Of a stretch of DNA of 41,223 nt, positions 17,649 through 39,365 are shown one piece after another. The notes beneath the pieces were generated by a model. That model ran no database searches. It saw only the letters and a list, made by a program, of their open reading frames with translations, and was not told the DNA's origin. Origin of the DNA: Candidatus Peribacteria bacterium RIFCSPLOWO2_12_FULL_55_15 (GTDB lineage Bacteria; Patescibacteriota; Gracilibacteria; Peribacterales; Peribacteraceae); the NCBI GenBank assembly GCA_001789045.1, contig MFYG01000004.1, positions 1 through 41,223 on the forward strand. Direction: 5' to 3'. Position 1 is the stretch's first letter, and each line of letters opens with the position of its first letter. Both the position numbers and the translations under genes were made by a program.

Positions 17649-18737
17649 ATGTCTCACCAGAACCCCCGCATACGGTACGACTCCGTCGGCAATGTCATCC
17701 TCTTGAGCGGAGAAGAACACCACACGAATCAGGCAGTCCCCTCAGTGTCTGCCATCTCTCTGCCGTGGACGGCGCTTCTCGCTTTTTTTGGATCGATCTT
17801 TTCCGAAAGCGCGCTGCAGTATCGCTGGACATTATATGACATCCGTGGAATAACACAGAGAATGTATTCTTTCGCTGTTAAAGGAACGTCTATTCTCCTT
17901 GCTTTCCTCTGCCAACCAGTATGGGTACCGGGACGAAAGGGTATTCCCCAACACTATAGTCGCGGAAAGCTCTTCCTTGCCGATTCTCTTCGTTTCGGAA
18001 TGACGTTTGCAAGTATTTTTGCCATCCTCTTCCTAACACTCAACTATCAGAGCTTTGGGAAAATTGCCGTAGCGATGGCAGATCCCCTCGCTCTTCTCGG
18101 TGATCGCCTGCCTGTTCTACAGGCGGCAGAGACTCTCTCCCAAAAGACCACCCGGAATGTGGACACCGATCTCGCGCAGTTTCTCCCCCCCATTGGCCCG
18201 CCGGAAAACCGCCTCCTCATCCCGTCCCTTGGGCTCAATGTCCCCATTGTCATCCCCCAGAATGATGCGCTGCTCGCAGAAGACTGGACACGTCTTGAAA
18301 AGGATATTCAGACTTCCCTGGAGAACGGAACAGTTCATTATCCAGGAACAGCGCGTCCCGGGCAAGCAGGAAATTTTTTTGTCACCGGACATAGTTCGTA
18401 CTATCCCTGGTCACAAGGAAAGTACAAATCTGTCTTTGCGCGCCTTCCCACTCTGAAAATCGGCGAGGAGTTCTGGATCTACTACGGCGGAGATCGTCAC
18501 CGCTATGTCATTCAGGAGAAGAGGGAAGTAAAGCCGACAGACGTTGGTATCCTCGACCAACCTCTCGATCGACGCATCGCCACACTCATGACTTGCGTCC
18601 CTGTCGGGACGACACTCCGCCGCCTCGTCCTCACGGCGCAGGAACTCGATCCTCTGACCGGCATACCAATGACGGTCGGTCAGCATGCCGCTCCAGCGAA
18701 TGCCCCGAAGACACCATCGGGGATGTTACCTATTTAA
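17649..18737 (+). CDS. sortase (class D/E-like)
   Basis: 362 residues. Sortases are membrane transpeptidases that cut a C-terminal sorting motif and attach surface proteins to the cell wall or polymerise pilins. A long N-terminal part contains a hydrophobic segment (about 32-48) and a second (FGMTFASIFAILFLTLNY, about 117-134), after which the catalytic domain is extracytoplasmic. The catalytic His is H248 in FVTGHSSYYPW, the Cys is C316 in TLMTCVPVGTT and the Arg follows in LRRLVL. The class cannot be fixed by eye. No LPXTG-type substrate is seen in the window; candidates are the surface proteins at 20-21.9 and 28.5-32 kb, though most have transmembrane anchors instead. Confidence 0.9.
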   Translation: MSHQNPRIRYDSVGNVILLSGEEHHTNQAVPSVSAISLPWTALLAFFGSIFSESALQYRWTLYDIRGITQRMYSFAVKGTSILLAFLCQPVWVPGRKGIPQHYSRGKLFLADSLRFGMTFASIFAILFLTLNYQSFGKIAVAMADPLALLGDRLPVLQAAETLSQKTTRNVDTDLAQFLPPIGPPENRLLIPSLGLNVPIVIPQNDALLAEDWTRLEKDIQTSLENGTVHYPGTARPGQAGNFFVTGHSSYYPWSQGKYKSVFARLPTLKIGEEFWIYYGGDRHRYVIQEKREVKPTDVGILDQPLDRRIATLMTCVPVGTTLRRLVLTAQELDPLTGIPMTVGQHAAPANAPKTPSGMLPI

Positions 18738-28393: not shown

Positions 28394-28486
28394 GCCCTCC
28401 ACCCTCCTCCTCCTTCGCCAAGGCTCCCCACTGCTCTCTACGAGCTTCGATGGGCAGGACGGCTGGCAGGCGTTGGGAAGAGGGTG
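28394..28486. repeat. degenerate composite repeat (family A long form)
   Basis: Holds CCCTCCACCCTCC, CTTCGCCAAGGCTCCCC, GAGCTTCGATGGGCAGGAC and TTGGGAAGAGGG: the parts of the purD long form, with an extra GAGCTTCG block also seen near 920. Confidence 0.6.
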
Positions 28487-28543
28487 TTTGAAATTGAGCA
28501 ATATTCAGAACATAAATATAGTACACTTGCAATTCTCTTCCCG

Positions 28544-28572
28544 TTGCAGGATCGTGCGATCATAGCTATAAT
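28544..28572 (+). promoter_or_regulatory. promoter of the dockerin gene
   Basis: TTGCAG (28544-28549), a 17-nt spacer and consensus TATAAT (28567-28572), 8 nt before the ATG. The start would lie within about two bases of the ATG. Confidence 0.75.
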
Positions 28573-28580
28573 AATTGGAA

Positions 28581-28904
28581 ATGCATACAAAATCACAACG
28601 GATCTTCCGCGGCATTCGGGTTGCAACTCTCGGCAGTCTCTGCGTTGTTGCATCATTTGCGCTCGGCATTCATACCGCAGGAGATATCGCACCCATTGCC
28701 TCTCTCCAGGCTGACGGCCCCGCACGAGAAGGAGATATGAATGACGATTCCACAGTCAATATCCAGGATGTCATTGAAATCCTCGAGATCGTCCGCGGTA
28801 ATACACAAACAACCGCGCACCACCTGAGAGTGGATCCCAATACTGACGGGCAATTGACCATCGATGATGCAATTCATCTCCTCCAAACCCTGGCTGCCCT
28901 CTAG
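28581..28904 (+). CDS. small secreted dockerin-type protein
   Basis: 107 residues from the ATG at 28581 (a TTG two codons earlier is in frame). Residues 8-30 form a signal peptide or anchor (VATLGSLCVVASFALGI). The rest holds two 22-24 residue calcium-binding F-hand repeats: GDMNDDSTVNIQDVIEILEI and DPNTDGQLTIDDAIHLLQT. This is the duplicated layout of type I dockerins (DxNxDxxxxxxD). Dockerins bind cohesins in Ca2+-dependent complexes. The next gene has a cohesin-like domain and overlaps this one by 41 bp, so the pair is probably cognate. Confidence 0.8.
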   Translation: MHTKSQRIFRGIRVATLGSLCVVASFALGIHTAGDIAPIASLQADGPAREGDMNDDSTVNIQDVIEILEIVRGNTQTTAHHLRVDPNTDGQLTIDDAIHLLQTLAAL

Positions 28905-30036
28905 ATGGGTCCTCACAGGACCCGTTCTCCTTCTCCTCTTCCTTCTCCCGTCACCCATGACGGCACAGGAGACTGGGCCGATGCTTTTGCTCCGGCCACA
29001 TTGCGAACAGGAGGAATCTCGATGCACTCTCTTCCAAACACGCGATCCAATCACACAGGAAACTCCGATGATCAATACCGGAGAGACACTCGACATGGAT
29101 CTCATCATCTGGAACCCCATGCGCCATGAGATCAACCGAGTCCGTGCCTGGATTGCCTATGATCCTACTATTCTCGAAGGAATAACGCTCTCACTCGCTG
29201 ATGCTTTCCCACTCCCCTCTCCCGGAGAAGCCGATTTCTCTCATAAAGAAGGGTACGTGAAAATAAGTGCGAGCGCCGATACCGAAGGACAAACGGAAGA
29301 CATAATTGTCGTTGCACGGATACAAATGCGTGTCATCTCTACGCCGAGTTCGAGCACAACATTGAGTTTCTACGATGCGGGACCCATGCCGGAAAACCAC
29401 ACCAATATCTTTCGTGGCTCCGGCCCCCTCGAGCAAAGCGTCCTCAACTCCTCATCTCTGGGACAACTGCAGGTCCGTCTCCTCCAAGCGCAGGATTTAG
29501 AACCCGAGGCAACTACATCTCCCTTTCCCATCCAAGCCCCACAAATCGATCAACCATCAGAAGTCTTCACCATTCTCCGGATACATAACCTTCGCGCGAC
29601 GACCGAAGGGAGCTCCATCTTTCTCGCATGGGATCCCCTCCCCTCTTCCAAACTCATCGGATACAACCTGTACTACGGAACGGTTCCTGGGGAGTACATG
29701 CAACGCCGGAGCATGGATAGTGCAACGACGTCGATGACTCTCCGTTCCCTCCCCCTGGACAGACAGTATTTCTTTGCCATACGGGGCGTCTCGGACACAC
29801 AGACGGAAACGGCATTCGATCAAGAAGTGACGATCACCGTCGGAAATCCCGGATCATCAAGCGCCCCCTTGCGTGGGAGCATCGTGGAACTGGAAAGCAC
29901 GAGCAAACACCCCCAGCGCTCGCTCGCCGGTCGCACCGGTACATCGTCCATCTTTCTCATTGTCGTCCTTGGTTCTGCATGTGTGGGGACTGCCCTCGCC
30001 TGCCGTCGACAATGCATTGCCTCCAAACATCTGTGA
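28864..30036 (+). CDS. cohesin-like and FN3 surface protein with C-terminal membrane anchor
   Basis: 390 residues. A signal peptide (VLTGPVLLLLFLLPSPMTAQ) precedes a domain starting near 70, INTGETLDMDLIIWNP with WIAYDPTILEGITL. This matches the cohesin opening, a VxVGDxFxVxVxV strand followed by a yDPxxL motif. Residues about 220-320 form a fibronectin type III domain (SIFLAWDPLPSSKLIGYNLYY, RQYFFAIRGV). A Ser/Thr-rich linker leads to a transmembrane helix (SIFLIVVLGSACVGTALAC) and a short basic tail, so it is anchored by its C-terminus with the cohesin outside. The start lies inside the dockerin gene. The next gene starts at its stop codon (GTGA). Confidence 0.75.
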   Translation: MMQFISSKPWLPSRWVLTGPVLLLLFLLPSPMTAQETGPMLLLRPHCEQEESRCTLFQTRDPITQETPMINTGETLDMDLIIWNPMRHEINRVRAWIAYDPTILEGITLSLADAFPLPSPGEADFSHKEGYVKISASADTEGQTEDIIVVARIQMRVISTPSSSTTLSFYDAGPMPENHTNIFRGSGPLEQSVLNSSSLGQLQVRLLQAQDLEPEATTSPFPIQAPQIDQPSEVFTILRIHNLRATTEGSSIFLAWDPLPSSKLIGYNLYYGTVPGEYMQRRSMDSATTSMTLRSLPLDRQYFFAIRGVSDTQTETAFDQEVTITVGNPGSSSAPLRGSIVELESTSKHPQRSLAGRTGTSSIFLIVVLGSACVGTALACRRQCIASKHL

Positions 30037-30764
30037 TTATCATCCATCCGCACTGGCAGAGCACGGATGCCTCACAACCGCCTCCCCTCAAAAAAGAGGC
30101 GGTTCGCATTCGCATCAGTCACGCTCCCTATTCCCGCCGCTCTGCAGCAATCCTCGGTGTCTCCCTTGCTATAATTCTCGGTATCATTCTCGTGCAGAAT
30201 GTTCATACCATCACAGGGCAACTCACGGAATCATCCATGGTCATTCGCATCACCACTGTGGGGTTCGAGCCAGCATCTGTCACCATCTCCCCTAGCGCTA
30301 CGATCACCTGGAAGAATGTGGACACCAAACCTCATATCCTCTCCTCCGATACTCTCCTAACCACTGACGGACTCCTGTACTCCACTGCGATCTTCCCGGA
30401 GGAAGAGTTCCGTACAATCATTCCCGATGAGAGTTCTCCGGGGAAATACCAGTACGTTTCCCTGACGGATCCTACAATGTCCGGCACTGTGCGTATCGAG
30501 GAAAAGCTTGCCTATCCTCCATCGCCTGCCCTCCCGCACAATCCATTTGTGGCGGAGACATCTGTCACATCTCCCAGGCATCCTCCAGTGTCAAAAATCG
30601 ATCCTGAATGGAAGCAAACCAGTGGAACGTTCGGGCAATCATCATCCGGCGCCAAGCCATTCCGGAACCCGGAAACGGGCATCCCCCTCGGCGTATCCTT
30701 CCTCGCGGCGCTCGCCGTCGTTCTCTTCCTCACGCGCCGCATCCTCCGCTCTCCGCACTGTTAA
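30033..30764 (+). CDS. membrane-anchored cupredoxin-like protein with altered copper site
   Basis: 243 residues from the GTG at 30033, which overlaps the upstream stop as GTGA; ATG codons at 29979 and 30012 are alternatives. A membrane segment (SAAILGVSLAIILGIILVQ) is followed by an outside domain of plastocyanin type: VGFEPASVTISPSATITWKN, DTKPHILSSD with the first His, then PGKYQYVSLTDPTMSG. Compared with the usual YxYxCxxHPxMxG, the Cys is Ser and the second His is Asp; only His and Met remain. A type I copper centre is therefore unlikely. A Pro/Ser-rich stretch and a second helix (GVSFLAALAVVLFLT) end the protein. It is last in the dockerin-cohesin operon. Confidence 0.75.
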   Translation: MIIIHPHWQSTDASQPPPLKKEAVRIRISHAPYSRRSAAILGVSLAIILGIILVQNVHTITGQLTESSMVIRITTVGFEPASVTISPSATITWKNVDTKPHILSSDTLLTTDGLLYSTAIFPEEEFRTIIPDESSPGKYQYVSLTDPTMSGTVRIEEKLAYPPSPALPHNPFVAETSVTSPRHPPVSKIDPEWKQTSGTFGQSSSGAKPFRNPETGIPLGVSFLAALAVVLFLTRRILRSPHC

Positions 30765-30802: not shown

Positions 30803-31243
30803 ATGGAACGTCTCAAGTCCCCGCCACGGGAAGAATCTCCCGAAGAAGCGGGGGCGCGGATCATCCGCGACCTCCTGGCAATGCCCGACCCCCCGCAAAC
30901 TCTCGAAGAGGATCTTTTGGAAACCAATATGCGCTTCGTGCAGAACGAGGAAATCATCCCCCTCCAGCTCGCTCTGGAGCGTCAGAAGCTTGCTCTCCGC
31001 GCCAGCATCGCCACCCAGTTGGAAGAGCACTTCCGCGCCTGCCCGTCCCTCACGAAAGAACAGCGCGCAAGCCGCAACGAAGCGGCCCGCGCATTCGAAA
31101 AAAAGCAGATCGCCGCGCTACGGAAACACACGAGAAAGCTCATCGATGATCTCCACGCCGTCCGCAAGCGTCGCGATGAGGCCATCCACGAGTGGTGCAG
31201 GAATAACCTCCAATCCACACATTCGATGGTGCCTACGACATGA
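30803..31243 (+). CDS. helical protein of unknown function
   Basis: 146 residues, highly charged, with no signal peptide or membrane segment. Most of it is predicted helix, with long amphipathic stretches such as LQLALERQKLALRASIATQLEE and AARAFEKKQIAALRKHTRKL that could form a coiled coil. I recognise no family. It starts shortly after the cupredoxin-like gene but has its own -10. A family A repeat follows 13 bp after its stop. Confidence 0.6.
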   Translation: MERLKSPPREESPEEAGARIIRDLLAMPDPPQTLEEDLLETNMRFVQNEEIIPLQLALERQKLALRASIATQLEEHFRACPSLTKEQRASRNEAARAFEKKQIAALRKHTRKLIDDLHAVRKRRDEAIHEWCRNNLQSTHSMVPTT

Positions 31244-31322: not shown

Positions 31323-32171
31323 ATGCGTTATACATTGCTGCTCCTCAGTAGCCTTCTCTTCTTCCACGCACCCAGTCGTACGCACGCGACAGAAAATGCT
31401 TCCTCGCAGAACATTTTGGAACCACCAGAAGAACACGAACAGTGGCAAGGCTCTGTTGAAGCTCTAGGCATCCAATTTCCACTGAGCTGTGCAGTATGGG
31501 GCAACGAGGAGAAGCGCATATTTCAGTGCAAACAAGAGGACAATACTGTAGATCTTACCATTCACAGTTCCCAAACAGATCCCCTCCTCTCTGTTCACAG
31601 CAGAATCTTAGAGAAAACCGCCGACGCACATGCCGTAAAAAATGGGGAGATTCTCGAAGTCTCCGGAACCTACGACGATCAGGCCTCTTCCCTCCCACTC
31701 ACGATCGGAGGAACAGCACAGGATTTCACCTTCAGTGGCGTCCACAACACTACCTCATTCCAGGGAAATGGATCGTACAAACCGGATTCTCTCCGCGTCT
31801 CCATCTCCTTTTCGCAGAATTTCCCTATTACCGGAATACTCGATCTCCATCGGAGCAACGGAGAAGAAATGAAACCTTTCCACAACACAGGAATAGGAAC
31901 GACTTCCACTGGCAATGTACCAGAACTCATTCCTCCGGTTCTCCCTCTCCTCAACTCTGGCACCATCGAAGTGGCAACGCGGCGCGCCATCGACCATGTC
32001 CAGGATTCCGGTCAGACACTCACGAGCTTCTCTCGTATCCTCTCCCTCGTCTTCCAAACCATTTTCGCCATCCTTGTCATCCTCATCCTCATCACCTTCG
32101 TCTTCCTCTTCCGGCACATAAAAATGCAACAGCGTAGCCCGCAGGGTAAAGACCAACCACCGCCGCACTAG
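31323..32171 (+). CDS. secreted protein with C-terminal membrane anchor
   Basis: 282 residues. The signal peptide is MRYTLLLLSSLLFFHAPSRTHA. The extracellular part (about 23-240) is Ser/Thr-rich, with beta-strand patterns such as LPLTIGGTAQDFTFSGVHNT and two Cys (LSCAVWGNEEKRIFQCK) likely to form a disulfide. Near 245-268 a helix, FQTIFAILVILILITFVFLF, anchors it, followed by a short basic tail. No family is recognised. Same topology as the cohesin protein upstream: outside domain, C-terminal helix. It has its own leaderless-type promoter and ends 33 bp before the tRNA-Tyr gene on the other strand. Confidence 0.7.
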   Translation: MRYTLLLLSSLLFFHAPSRTHATENASSQNILEPPEEHEQWQGSVEALGIQFPLSCAVWGNEEKRIFQCKQEDNTVDLTIHSSQTDPLLSVHSRILEKTADAHAVKNGEILEVSGTYDDQASSLPLTIGGTAQDFTFSGVHNTTSFQGNGSYKPDSLRVSISFSQNFPITGILDLHRSNGEEMKPFHNTGIGTTSTGNVPELIPPVLPLLNSGTIEVATRRAIDHVQDSGQTLTSFSRILSLVFQTIFAILVILILITFVFLFRHIKMQQRSPQGKDQPPPH

Positions 32172-35742: not shown

Positions 35743-37983
35743 ATGCCACGCCCCAGACGTCGGCTCCGACACAAGAGATCATCTCGAGGACTCGATCTAC
35801 ATCCGCGCACTTTAAAGTCCCTGAGCGGCATTGCAAACCTCCTTATCGGCATTCTCCTCGCACTCGCCCTTCGACAAGAAGCCGGCCCTCTGGGGAAAGC
35901 CATCCAGCGAATCCTTACATTCTTTGCGGGACGATGGGCCATCCTCTTCCCAATACTCTTTACCATCTTGGGCATCCTCCACTGGTCGCTGCCCACCCCA
36001 CGGTGGCCGCGGAAACGCCTCCTCGGTCTTACATTGTCCGCATTCGCTTTCCTCGGCCTCATGCACATTGGAGCGCCTTTGGAAGATATTGGCACCCGGC
36101 GCGATGAGCTCGCAGGAGCCATGGGCTTCATGGTGAGTCTTCCATTCATTCTTTTCGCAAGTCGAACGGTAGGCATTGTTGTCCTCTCCACTGTCCTCCT
36201 CGCCGGCATTCTTTTGGCCTTCGAGCCTGATCCTCTCAGGATCTTTTTAGTACTCCAGGCGTTCCGAAATCGCCTGAAAGTTCAGCGTAAGTCTCGGGGA
36301 GTTTCTCCCCTGGACACAGAGGAGAACGACTCTGCCACCGACCTCGTCGAACAGGAACACAAACCTCCGGAACTCAATATTGTTCGTCCGGTCTTTGCAA
36401 AAAGCCTCGTCCAGGACCAAACGGAGAAAGCTCTCCAAGAACAACTCCGCGCCAGAACACTTGCACAGGCAACGCAGATTCTCCAGATGAAGGATACGCG
36501 GTATGAAGAATGGACATTCCCCACGTACGATCTCCTGGAAGCGGCTGAGAGCCAACTCATGATCAACGATGAGGAATTGAAGCAACAAGCCCGACTCATT
36601 GAAGAAAAGCTTCGGGAATTCGAGATTGACGTCACTGTGCGGGATGCACATCCCGGCCCCACGGTGACGCAGTTCACTTTACAACCTGCAGAAGGCGTCA
36701 AACTCAGCCGCATCGGAAGTCTTAAAGATGATCTTTCCCTCGCTCTCGCAGCGCAAAGCTTACGGATCGAGGCGCCAATTCCAGGAAAATCCCTCGTTGG
36801 CATTGAGATGCCGAATGCCGTGCGCACGACCGTGCATCTCAAGGAGATGTTGGAAAGCCCTTCATTCTCGCAGTCCTCGTCCCCTCTCACGCTCCCCCTT
36901 GGACGGGACGTCTCGGGAGACGCCGTGGTGGCAAATCTTGATGCTATGCCACATCTTCTTATCGCCGGCGCCACTGGTTCCGGGAAATCCGTCTGCATGA
37001 ATACTTTTCTCATGGCCCTCCTCTTTCAGAATGCCCCCCATGAACTCAAGCTCATCCTCATTGATCCGAAGCGCGTGGAGTTAATGCCCTACGATGGCAT
37101 TCCCCATCTCCTCACCCCCGTCATCACGGAGGCGGAAAAAGCATTACAGGCCTTCCGATGGGCCGTAGCTGAAATGGGCCGTCGACTGCGCTGCTTCTCC
37201 GCAATAAGCGTGCGCAATATCGATGAATTCAATGAAAAGCAAACGCGCGAGGAGGACATGCTCGCTCGCATTGTCATCGTCATCGACGAACTCGCTGATC
37301 TCATGATGCGACAGTTCCGGCGCGACACGGAAATGATGATCACTAGGATCGCACAGATGGCCCGCGCCGTCGGCATGCACCTCGTCATCGCCACCCAGCG
37401 TCCCAGCGTCGACGTCATCACAGGCCTCATTAAGGCCAATGTCCCCACCCGCATTGCCTTCCGCACGGTCAGCGCCGTCGATTCACGGACGATTATTGAT
37501 TCTATCGGCGCGGAAGATCTCCTTGGAAAAGGGGACATGCTTTACTTAACTGCAACAACACCAAAACCCATGCGTATCCAGGGGATCTACGTATCGACAA
37601 AAGAAGTTGGACGAGTTATCAATGCAGTGAAGATTGCCGGTGGTGGAAAGATTACGGAGCAAATAGGTATTGCGGAGGAAGAAGACGCCGACCGCTCTTC
37701 GCTCGCCGACGACGAGTCCCCTGCCCCTCCGGCAGGCAGGCGCGTGGCGAGCGCAAACATTGATCTGGATGCAGATGATGATGGTGGAGATGACTTATTC
37801 TTCGATGCAATCAACGTGGTGCGGGAAACTGGAAAGGCCTCCGCCAGTCTTCTGCAACGTCGCCTGAGTGTCGGTTACGCCCGCGCTGCAAAGCTCCTCG
37901 ACATCATGGAACGCAAAAACCTCATCGGACCGACCGATGGGGCGAAGGCACGAAAGGTGTACATGGAGAAAACAGCAATATGA
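35743..37983 (+). CDS. ftsK: DNA translocase FtsK
   Basis: 746 residues. FtsK pumps DNA at the division septum and helps resolve chromosome dimers. The N-terminal part has about four hydrophobic segments (near 32-50, 65-80, 90-115 and 125-160). The motor has Walker A GATGSGKS (409-416), IVIDELADLMM near 510, RPSVDVITGLIKANVPTRIAFRTVS and GKGDMLYLT. The C-terminal gamma winged helix (LQRRLSVGYARAAKLLDIME) would read KOPS sites. The region SPAPPAGRR near 659-669 carries a piece of the repeat. Open frame upstream of 35743 is antisense to the RmlD-like gene. It overlaps PMT by ATGA. Confidence 0.93.
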   Translation: MPRPRRRLRHKRSSRGLDLHPRTLKSLSGIANLLIGILLALALRQEAGPLGKAIQRILTFFAGRWAILFPILFTILGILHWSLPTPRWPRKRLLGLTLSAFAFLGLMHIGAPLEDIGTRRDELAGAMGFMVSLPFILFASRTVGIVVLSTVLLAGILLAFEPDPLRIFLVLQAFRNRLKVQRKSRGVSPLDTEENDSATDLVEQEHKPPELNIVRPVFAKSLVQDQTEKALQEQLRARTLAQATQILQMKDTRYEEWTFPTYDLLEAAESQLMINDEELKQQARLIEEKLREFEIDVTVRDAHPGPTVTQFTLQPAEGVKLSRIGSLKDDLSLALAAQSLRIEAPIPGKSLVGIEMPNAVRTTVHLKEMLESPSFSQSSSPLTLPLGRDVSGDAVVANLDAMPHLLIAGATGSGKSVCMNTFLMALLFQNAPHELKLILIDPKRVELMPYDGIPHLLTPVITEAEKALQAFRWAVAEMGRRLRCFSAISVRNIDEFNEKQTREEDMLARIVIVIDELADLMMRQFRRDTEMMITRIAQMARAVGMHLVIATQRPSVDVITGLIKANVPTRIAFRTVSAVDSRTIIDSIGAEDLLGKGDMLYLTATTPKPMRIQGIYVSTKEVGRVINAVKIAGGGKITEQIGIAEEEDADRSSLADDESPAPPAGRRVASANIDLDADDDGGDDLFFDAINVVRETGKASASLLQRRLSVGYARAAKLLDIMERKNLIGPTDGAKARKVYMEKTAI
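37717..37750 (+). repeat. partial repeat inside ftsK
   Basis: CCCCTGCCCCTCCGGCAGGC then AGGCGCG, the central part of the family A long form; in frame in the linker before the gamma domain. Confidence 0.5.
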
Positions 37984-39365
37984 ATTTCTCGAGGCCTCTT
38001 TTTCTGCTCCTTTTCCTTGCCGTCCTCACCAGATTTTGGAATCTCGGCTATCCGGTCGAGGCGGTCTTTGATGAAGTCCATTTTGGCAAATACGTCTCAG
38101 CTTACTTTACCCAAGAATACTATTTTGACGTGCATCCGCCTCTTGGCAAGCTCATGCTCGCCGGCGCGGCCAAGCTGTTCGGCTTCCAGCCCGGCTCTGA
38201 TTTTGACCATATTGGCGAAGTTATTGACGTGAGATCCATCGTCATTCTGCGGTTTCTGCCGGCGCTTTTTGGAGTACTTTTCGTGGCCATTGTCTACTGG
38301 ATTGGCCTGGCCCTGAATTTTTCCCGGCCAGCGGCGTTTTTAGGAGGTTTTCTCGCGCTCTTTGACAACGCTCTCCTTATTGAATCCAGATTCATCCTGC
38401 TTAATCTTTTCCTTCTCTCTTTCGGATTTGCCGCGCTCTGCTGTTATCTGCACTCGGAAAAAACCTCTGGCAACAAATACCTCATCTATTACGGACTCGC
38501 AGCCTGCTTTGCCGGACTCGCCGCCGGCATCAAATTTACCGGCGCGTCTTTCTTCGGGCTCATTTTACTCTTCGTCTTCATAACATTTCTCAAGGATCTG
38601 CGCTTTAAAAAGTTTCTCCTCAAATCCGCGCTCTTTATCGCGATTGCCGGATTGATTTATATCCTGCCATTTACATTTCATTTCGCGCTTCTGCCCAAGT
38701 CCGGCCCCGGCGACGCTTTTATGAGCTCGGCTTTTCATAAAACTTTGATCGGCAACAGGATCAACGCCGCCGACACGGCTGAACCTCTTTCTTTCTTTGG
38801 TAAATTCAGTGAACTGAACGTCGCCATGTACAACTACCATTCAGGAACTACGGCCTACCACCCGGACGGCAGCCGCTGGTACGAGTGGCCCTTTGACCGG
38901 AAAGCGGTTTATTACTGGACAAAATCGACCGAGGGCGCAACCGCCAAAATCTATCTTATGGGCAACCCTTTTATTTGGTGGCTGACCTCGGCCGCGATCG
39001 CGCTGTCATTTATTCTTATCACATTGAGAACAATCCGCGGGCGGCTCACGCCGGAAATCTATTTTCTCTTCGCTGGCTACTTTGCCAATCTCCTGCCCTT
39101 CATCCTGATCTCGCGCGTGACTTTTATTTATCACTATCTCTCTTCACTCGTCTTTGCGATACTCATCGCGGTTCTCGTTCTGGACCGTCTCATTATGAGA
39201 GCGCTTCAAAACCGCTTAACCAGCCGCTCTTTTGCCACCTTTTATGCGGCCTTACTTCTTTTGATCATGACCGCCTTTCTGCTTGTCGCGCCCTTAAGCT
39301 ACGGACTCCCCATCCCACCGTATTTTCAGACGTACTACGATGCCCTTATTCATTTTGTATCTTAA
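37980..39365 (+). CDS. PMT-family protein O-mannosyltransferase (GT39)
   Basis: 461 residues with about ten membrane segments. It resembles dolichyl-phosphate-mannose:protein mannosyltransferases, which transfer mannose from a polyprenyl phosphate to Ser/Thr of exported proteins. Signatures are FDEVHFGKYVSAYF (the catalytic Asp-Glu in the first outside loop), YFDVHPPLGKLMLA and GIKFTGASFFG. In YHSGTTAYHPDGSRWYEWPF the third luminal loop of the family can be seen. It overlaps ftsK by 4 bp (ATGA). The gene seems richer in TTT and CTT codons than its neighbours, which may hint at different origin. Substrates may include the Pro/Thr-rich protein at the end of the window. Confidence 0.88.
   Translation: MNFSRPLFLLLFLAVLTRFWNLGYPVEAVFDEVHFGKYVSAYFTQEYYFDVHPPLGKLMLAGAAKLFGFQPGSDFDHIGEVIDVRSIVILRFLPALFGVLFVAIVYWIGLALNFSRPAAFLGGFLALFDNALLIESRFILLNLFLLSFGFAALCCYLHSEKTSGNKYLIYYGLAACFAGLAAGIKFTGASFFGLILLFVFITFLKDLRFKKFLLKSALFIAIAGLIYILPFTFHFALLPKSGPGDAFMSSAFHKTLIGNRINAADTAEPLSFFGKFSELNVAMYNYHSGTTAYHPDGSRWYEWPFDRKAVYYWTKSTEGATAKIYLMGNPFIWWLTSAAIALSFILITLRTIRGRLTPEIYFLFAGYFANLLPFILISRVTFIYHYLSSLVFAILIAVLVLDRLIMRALQNRLTSRSFATFYAALLLLIMTAFLLVAPLSYGLPIPPYFQTYYDALIHFVS

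Follow-up and report, generated by a model that had tools for sequence, protein, structure and literature searches.

What do cohesin and dockerin modules, the "socket" and "plug" best known from cellulose-degrading machines (cellulosomes), do in a small gene cluster of Candidatus Peribacteraceae (Patescibacteria)? The window analyzed here, a 41,223-nt stretch of DNA from a genome of this family, carries three plus-strand genes, designated DOC, COH and CUP, which overlap in turn behind one promoter (Table 1). A preliminary description of the window had read them as a leaderless operon encoding a small exported protein with two dockerin F-hands, a membrane-anchored protein with a cohesin-like domain and an FN3 domain, and a membrane-anchored cupredoxin-like protein. 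The evidence given below bears out the promoter and the first two proteins, and requires the third to be redefined. The −35 hexamer TTGCAG (28544-28549) is separated by a 17-nt spacer from the −10 hexamer TATAAT (28567-28572), which is followed by 8 nt and then the ATG at 28581. A TATAAT-like box ending exactly 8 nt 5' of the DOC ATG was present in 53 of 69 loci, and this conserved spacing is that expected for a leaderless transcript. Upstream of the −35 box we also noticed a GTCAA element that is conserved in relatives (window 28480-28581 and the relatives' sequences); it could be the −35 (TTGAC) of the divergent holA promoter, and the two promoters may overlap. A search of 40 relatives' loci detected neither of the downstream genes (30803-31243 and 31323-32171) in the vicinity of the operon, and these two were therefore left out of its parts.

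Table 1. Features of the operon and of the upstream sortase gene (window coordinates).
Feature	Position	Strand	Description or basis
Sortase	17649..18737	+	PF04203, E=4e-20; 9.8 kb upstream of the operon
Promoter, leaderless, sigma-70-type	28544..28572	+	Sequence; conserved box in relatives
DOC	28581..28904	+	107-aa exported stand-alone dockerin; syntenic in 69/72 loci
First F-hand calcium loop, DMNDDSTVNIQD	28734..28769	+	Sequence
Second F-hand calcium loop, DPNTDGQLTIDD	28833..28868	+	Sequence
COH	28864..30036	+	Exported cohesin-FN3 protein of 390 aa; membrane segment and sorting-like signal at the C-terminus
Cohesin domain	28966..29490	+	Family profile against PDB; PF00963 in orthologues; AF2 and Foldseek (L065)
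FN3 domain	29584..29799	+	PF00041, E=7e-6, over the cut-off
COH tail	29923..30015	+	LAGRTG, hydrophobic segment, CRRQ; family consensus VPGETGxPS-TM-RRQ
CUP	30033..30764	+	Probable GTG start; HPHWQSTD tail at the N-terminus, then a membrane segment and a cupredoxin-like insert; sorting-like signal at the C-terminus
Cupredoxin-like domain lacking Cys-His-Met copper ligands	30219..30491	+	Pfam, alignment, family profile
CUP tail	30666..30750	+	NPETG, hydrophobic segment, RR; family QPxTG

The DOC protein begins with a hydrophobic segment, which may be cleaved off or may serve as a membrane anchor, and after it come two complete F-hand loops. By itself the window protein scored below the Pfam cut-off for PF00404 (E=0.0033; 18 bits, with the cut-off at 22.9), and 49 of 53 family members matched the same model at E<=0.1, the best at 2.2e-9. 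A DOC profile compared with the PDB retrieved dockerins together with other EF-hand proteins, the best matches being serine-protease entries. Both calcium loops are intact in 65 of 69 members, while a few copies carry a degenerate or cut loop; DOC is a putative calcium-binding protein.

In COH a signal peptide precedes a cohesin domain and an FN3 domain, and a membrane segment lies near the C-terminus. Pfam did not detect the cohesin in the window protein alone, but the domain is clear in orthologues, PF00963 being matched by 56 of 62 family members at E<=0.1 (best 2.3e-11). When the COH family profile was compared with the PDB, 16 of 17 sequences were cohesins or cellulosomal scaffoldins, and the exception was a cystatin (E=0.055). 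The jelly-roll fold was judged from an AF2 model of an orthologue (L065) standing in for the window domain; its cohesin region had a pLDDT of ~97, and its top Foldseek matches were cohesins (E 1e-8), in agreement with the fold anticipated in the preliminary description. In the COH of another relative (L092, 2424-4124, plus strand) a cysteine-rich Myxococcus-type repeat (TIGR02232) lies between the cohesin and FN3 domains, and other long COH proteins resemble it.

For CUP, the start is probably the GTG at 30033, rather than position 29979 as first given, because relatives begin M..HPHW and this GTG overlaps the COH stop as GTGA. The window protein matched PF13473 below the cut-off (E=8e-5), and the CUP family profile matched plastocyanin at 2.5e-10. 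With its plastocyanin-like profile and its membrane segments, the protein is membrane-anchored and cupredoxin-like as first described, but it is not a copper cupredoxin. None of the cupredoxin-like domains checked had the C..H..M copper ligands, the first His being kept in part of the family, and a type 1 (blue) copper protein with a redox role was rejected owing to this loss. Furthermore, the domain is missing in one genus (L058, L059 and L078-L080), where the N-terminal tail, the membrane segment and the QPxTG signal are kept. In sister families the same position is occupied by a protein having a similar N-terminal HW.T tail and a C-terminal TGP/SGP membrane tail, and no recognizable cupredoxin was found in these counterparts, whose profile similarity to CUP is weak and is best for G028, a locus considered below. 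Since the ligands are lost, and the domain is missing in one genus and unrecognizable in sister families, it is probably a dispensable, non-redox insert in a conserved protein with two membrane segments.

The C-termini of COH and CUP resemble sorting signals. CUP has the pentapeptide, hydrophobic segment and basic tail by which sortase substrates are recognized, and COH has a variant of them. A GxTG-type motif was found in the COH tail of 69 of 72 orthologues, the VPGETG type being non-canonical when compared with LPXTG, and a QPxTG-type pattern in 58 of 65 CUP members, some of the remainder being truncated sequences. The sortase that had been placed within 14 kb is indeed there (Table 1). Sortase is encoded in 73 of the 74 genomes of the order. 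In 41 genomes one of the best-scoring sortases listed is on the same contig as COH, so that the distance could be measured, and in 40 of these it is no more than 20 kb. We infer from the sequences that the tails would be processed by a sortase, and the one in the window is the likely enzyme. A protein O-mannosyltransferase (PMT) gene was also noticed near the operon (37980-39365, plus strand); its product could have the COH and CUP linkers, which are rich in Ser/Thr, as substrates.

How widely the operon occurs could not be seen from the window alone, and it proved to be far more conserved than that sequence could reveal. COH was present in 73 of the 74 genomes of the order, which in the database are the same 74 genomes as those of the family, including 57 of 57 good-quality ones and covering 40 genera; exactly one cohesin-domain match was obtained in 71 of the 72 genomes having any. 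DOC lies directly upstream, at the COH start, in 69 of 72 loci examined, the third gene follows COH in 65 of 72, and the operon is usually flanked by greA and the divergent holA. A contig search with a single window protein as the query gave no matches; with an FN3 alignment, the named relatives recovered were mostly Ca. Peribacteraceae, Peribacteria or Peregrinibacteria. This order-wide synteny, with a fixed gene order and nearly always a single copy, excludes a chance association. No earlier description of the operon was found in the open-access literature searched. We conclude that an order-wide conserved cohesin-dockerin surface operon is real, and that it is new relative to the literature searched. 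DOC is absent at two loci (L044 and L046, two genomes of one genus) though COH is kept, and no Pfam-detectable dockerin was found in these two genomes; half-dockerins can escape Pfam, as in G028, and hidden dockerin partners may therefore exist there.

The pairing of DOC with COH was approached through 19 relatives in which the two share one frame, separated by stops. In tethered co-folds, DOC and COH from such same-frame relatives were joined by reading the TAA stop as Gly, and both domains were modelled with a pLDDT near 97. The pTM values, 0.61 (307 aa) and 0.67 (272 aa), were obtained without an interface score and by a rough estimate fall between the expectations for no interface and for an interface, so that the relative placement of the domains is not established by them. 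DOC is a presumptive ligand of COH.

Outside the family the dockerin is found in a different context. Several other families of the class encode a >1000-aa Ig-like-repeat protein, a ~200-aa cohesin (with a lipobox in those read) and then a relative of the cohesin-FN3 protein, and the C-terminus of the giant protein carries one or two F-hands (a dockerin or half-dockerin); some sister-family loci do not have all of these parts. This arrangement was unforeseen in the preliminary description. The same giant-protein arrangement, without DOC, is present at the G028 locus, the deepest Peribacteraceae branch in the COH tree (support 98/98 for the family and 99/94 for the rest of the family), and the giant protein is otherwise missing from Peribacteraceae, save for weak partial matches. 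The tree was rooted by midpoint, and the polarity rests on the giant-protein arrangement being common to the sister families. The free dockerin appears to be the derived state, the simplest reading being a single replacement of the giant protein and the small cohesin by a free dockerin. At L145, L147, L148, L144, L048 and other sister-family loci, these secreted giants (>1000 aa) with their dockerin or half-dockerin ends are possibly the main surface proteins of those lineages. Outside the class, a phylum-wide search yielded only weak single-cohesin membrane proteins, and a dockerin-type motif was nearby in one of the 13 such loci read. The proteins at L219-L231, from other Patescibacteria families, are ~240 aa long and mostly have no dockerin motif nearby.

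Other dockerin proteins were also searched for in the window's own genome. A second dockerin-cohesin gene pair, likewise unforeseen, was found (C20, L005:2742-6055, minus strand), in which a DNRLRE protein with a C-terminal full dockerin is followed by a cohesin-bearing membrane protein; the pair sits behind genes resembling those for a histidine kinase and a response regulator. In addition, a subtilase-like fragment at a contig end (C19, L006:4191-5198, minus strand) has a single dockerin-type F-hand (DVNGDGMVNGAD) in its tail. Other dockerin proteins of ~300-2200 aa occur patchily, in some Peribacteraceae genomes, and COH is usually the sole Pfam-detectable cohesin. Given these other large dockerin proteins, COH may have several clients.

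The reading that we favor, and consider reasonably probable together with its steps, is that the operon encodes a small docking module, dependent on calcium, in the envelope of Peribacteraceae cells. COH would be exported and would carry its single cohesin and single FN3 domain on the outer side of the membrane, being fixed to the envelope by its C-terminal membrane segment, which the sortase may cut and link. DOC, also exported, would fold around two calcium ions into a dockerin and plug into COH, and the third protein, with its two membrane segments and a sorting-like tail of its own, would be a structural partner of COH. In related families the dockerin forms the end of an Ig-like surface protein of >1000 aa, and the ancestral job of the module would accordingly have been to hold that protein on the cell. 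In most Peribacteraceae, from which the large protein is gone, the lone dockerin would act as a plug or adaptor, with COH possibly free to receive other dockerin-bearing surface proteins. The order-wide conservation, the fixed gene order, the cohesin and dockerin identities with mostly intact calcium loops, the leaderless promoter, the tails, the nearby sortase, the giant-protein loci of sister families and G028, and the second pair at C20 count for this explanation, whereas the co-fold pTM values, the retention of COH without DOC at L044 and L046, the degenerate DOC loops and the non-canonical COH tail count against it. A function in surface assembly is likely, and adhesion or host attachment is possible. 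More tentatively, the stand-alone dockerin, freed from the giant Ig-like protein, might be the constitutive partner of the sortase-anchored cohesin in a fixed, calcium-clamped system. If that were true, the cohesin-dockerin lock would belong to the core envelope of a Patescibacteria order, whose cell-to-cell lifestyle might depend on it.

Several features of the data could be accommodated in other ways. COH might be a surface receptor of general scope, taking up various proteins that bear a dockerin (subtilases, DNRLRE proteins and other large surface proteins), with DOC as a regulator or cap, not the main ligand, that fills the socket as long as no client is present. The long dockerin proteins of some genomes, COH as usually the only Pfam-detectable cohesin, the F-hand ending the own-genome subtilase fragment, and the persistence of COH where DOC is lost are all in keeping with such a role. 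We nevertheless regard it as rather unlikely, given that the other dockerins are patchy whereas DOC is near-universal and fixed upstream of COH, and that the DNRLRE-dockerin protein of the same genome has an adjacent cohesin partner of its own. The survival of COH after DOC in one genus is also consistent with the two folds having been kept as structural or adhesive modules that do not bind each other, COH being an FN3/cohesin adhesin and DOC a separate exported calcium-binder. The co-fold interface that is not confidently placed points in the same direction, as do the cohesin folds of adhesion molecules such as the TMEM132 family (PMC6030884); however, the adjacent dockerin-cohesin order recurs in three settings, namely the operon, the giant-dockerin operon of sister families and the C20 pair, and we consider this second reading improbable.

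The presence of cohesin and dockerin domains, and the interpretation of CPR cohesin and dockerin genes in Shapirobacterales in such terms (PMC9123182), would allow a remnant cellulosome-like system for polymer degradation. This proposal is very hard to sustain and was rejected: each COH has one cohesin, no repeated-cohesin scaffoldin is present at the locus, DOC carries no enzyme, and the operon contains no glycoside hydrolase, where hydrolases were judged within the operon and the genome-wide search covered just cohesins and dockerins. The preliminary description had noted the lack of a glycoside hydrolase, and the reading of the pair as non-cellulosomal is supported.

The ways in which ultra-small Patescibacteria construct their surface and keep hold of partners are still debated territory, and an operon with conserved synteny and promoter, present nearly always as a single copy throughout an order, makes a strong candidate for a core role in the envelope. 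Its domains are small enough for direct testing as recombinant proteins, and the passage from giant-protein dockerin to lone dockerin provides an evolutionary series for two modules whose pairing has mostly been described in cellulosomes.

Compared with type I cellulosomal pairs such as Coh-OlpA-Doc918 (PDB 3ul4), the Peribacteraceae proteins have the same fold of both modules and the same two F-hand calcium loops, but there is no scaffoldin, no enzyme on the dockerin, and a single cohesin. Clostridium perfringens GH84C (PDB 2w1n), which Foldseek also matched to the cohesin model, likewise has a cohesin followed by FN3; its modules, however, belong to a glycoside hydrolase, whereas COH is anchored and has no enzyme domain. 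The archaeal and bacterial non-cellulosomal sets (Archaeoglobus fulgidus, ANME; PMC9012536) resemble the operon in being outside a cellulose context, with a likely part in surface assembly. Those of the ANME archaea are variable and include scaffoldin-like proteins (PMC9012536), in contrast to the single fixed operon with an enzyme-free, stand-alone dockerin found throughout the order here. Within the same class, the first complete Peribacteria genome, that of Ca. Peribacter riflensis, encodes a sortase and large cysteine-rich extracellular proteins (PMC4736985, the main text of which does not contain the word "cohesin"), and these surface proteins can be set beside the cysteine-rich repeat in the COH of L092. 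In another Patescibacteria lineage, Southlakia epibionticum, an envelope dockerin protein (SEML1_0315) and an FN3 protein (SEML1_0890) are essential, and the authors suggested glycans of the host cell as their targets (PMC10633639); the likeness to DOC and COH is one of domain type, homology aside.
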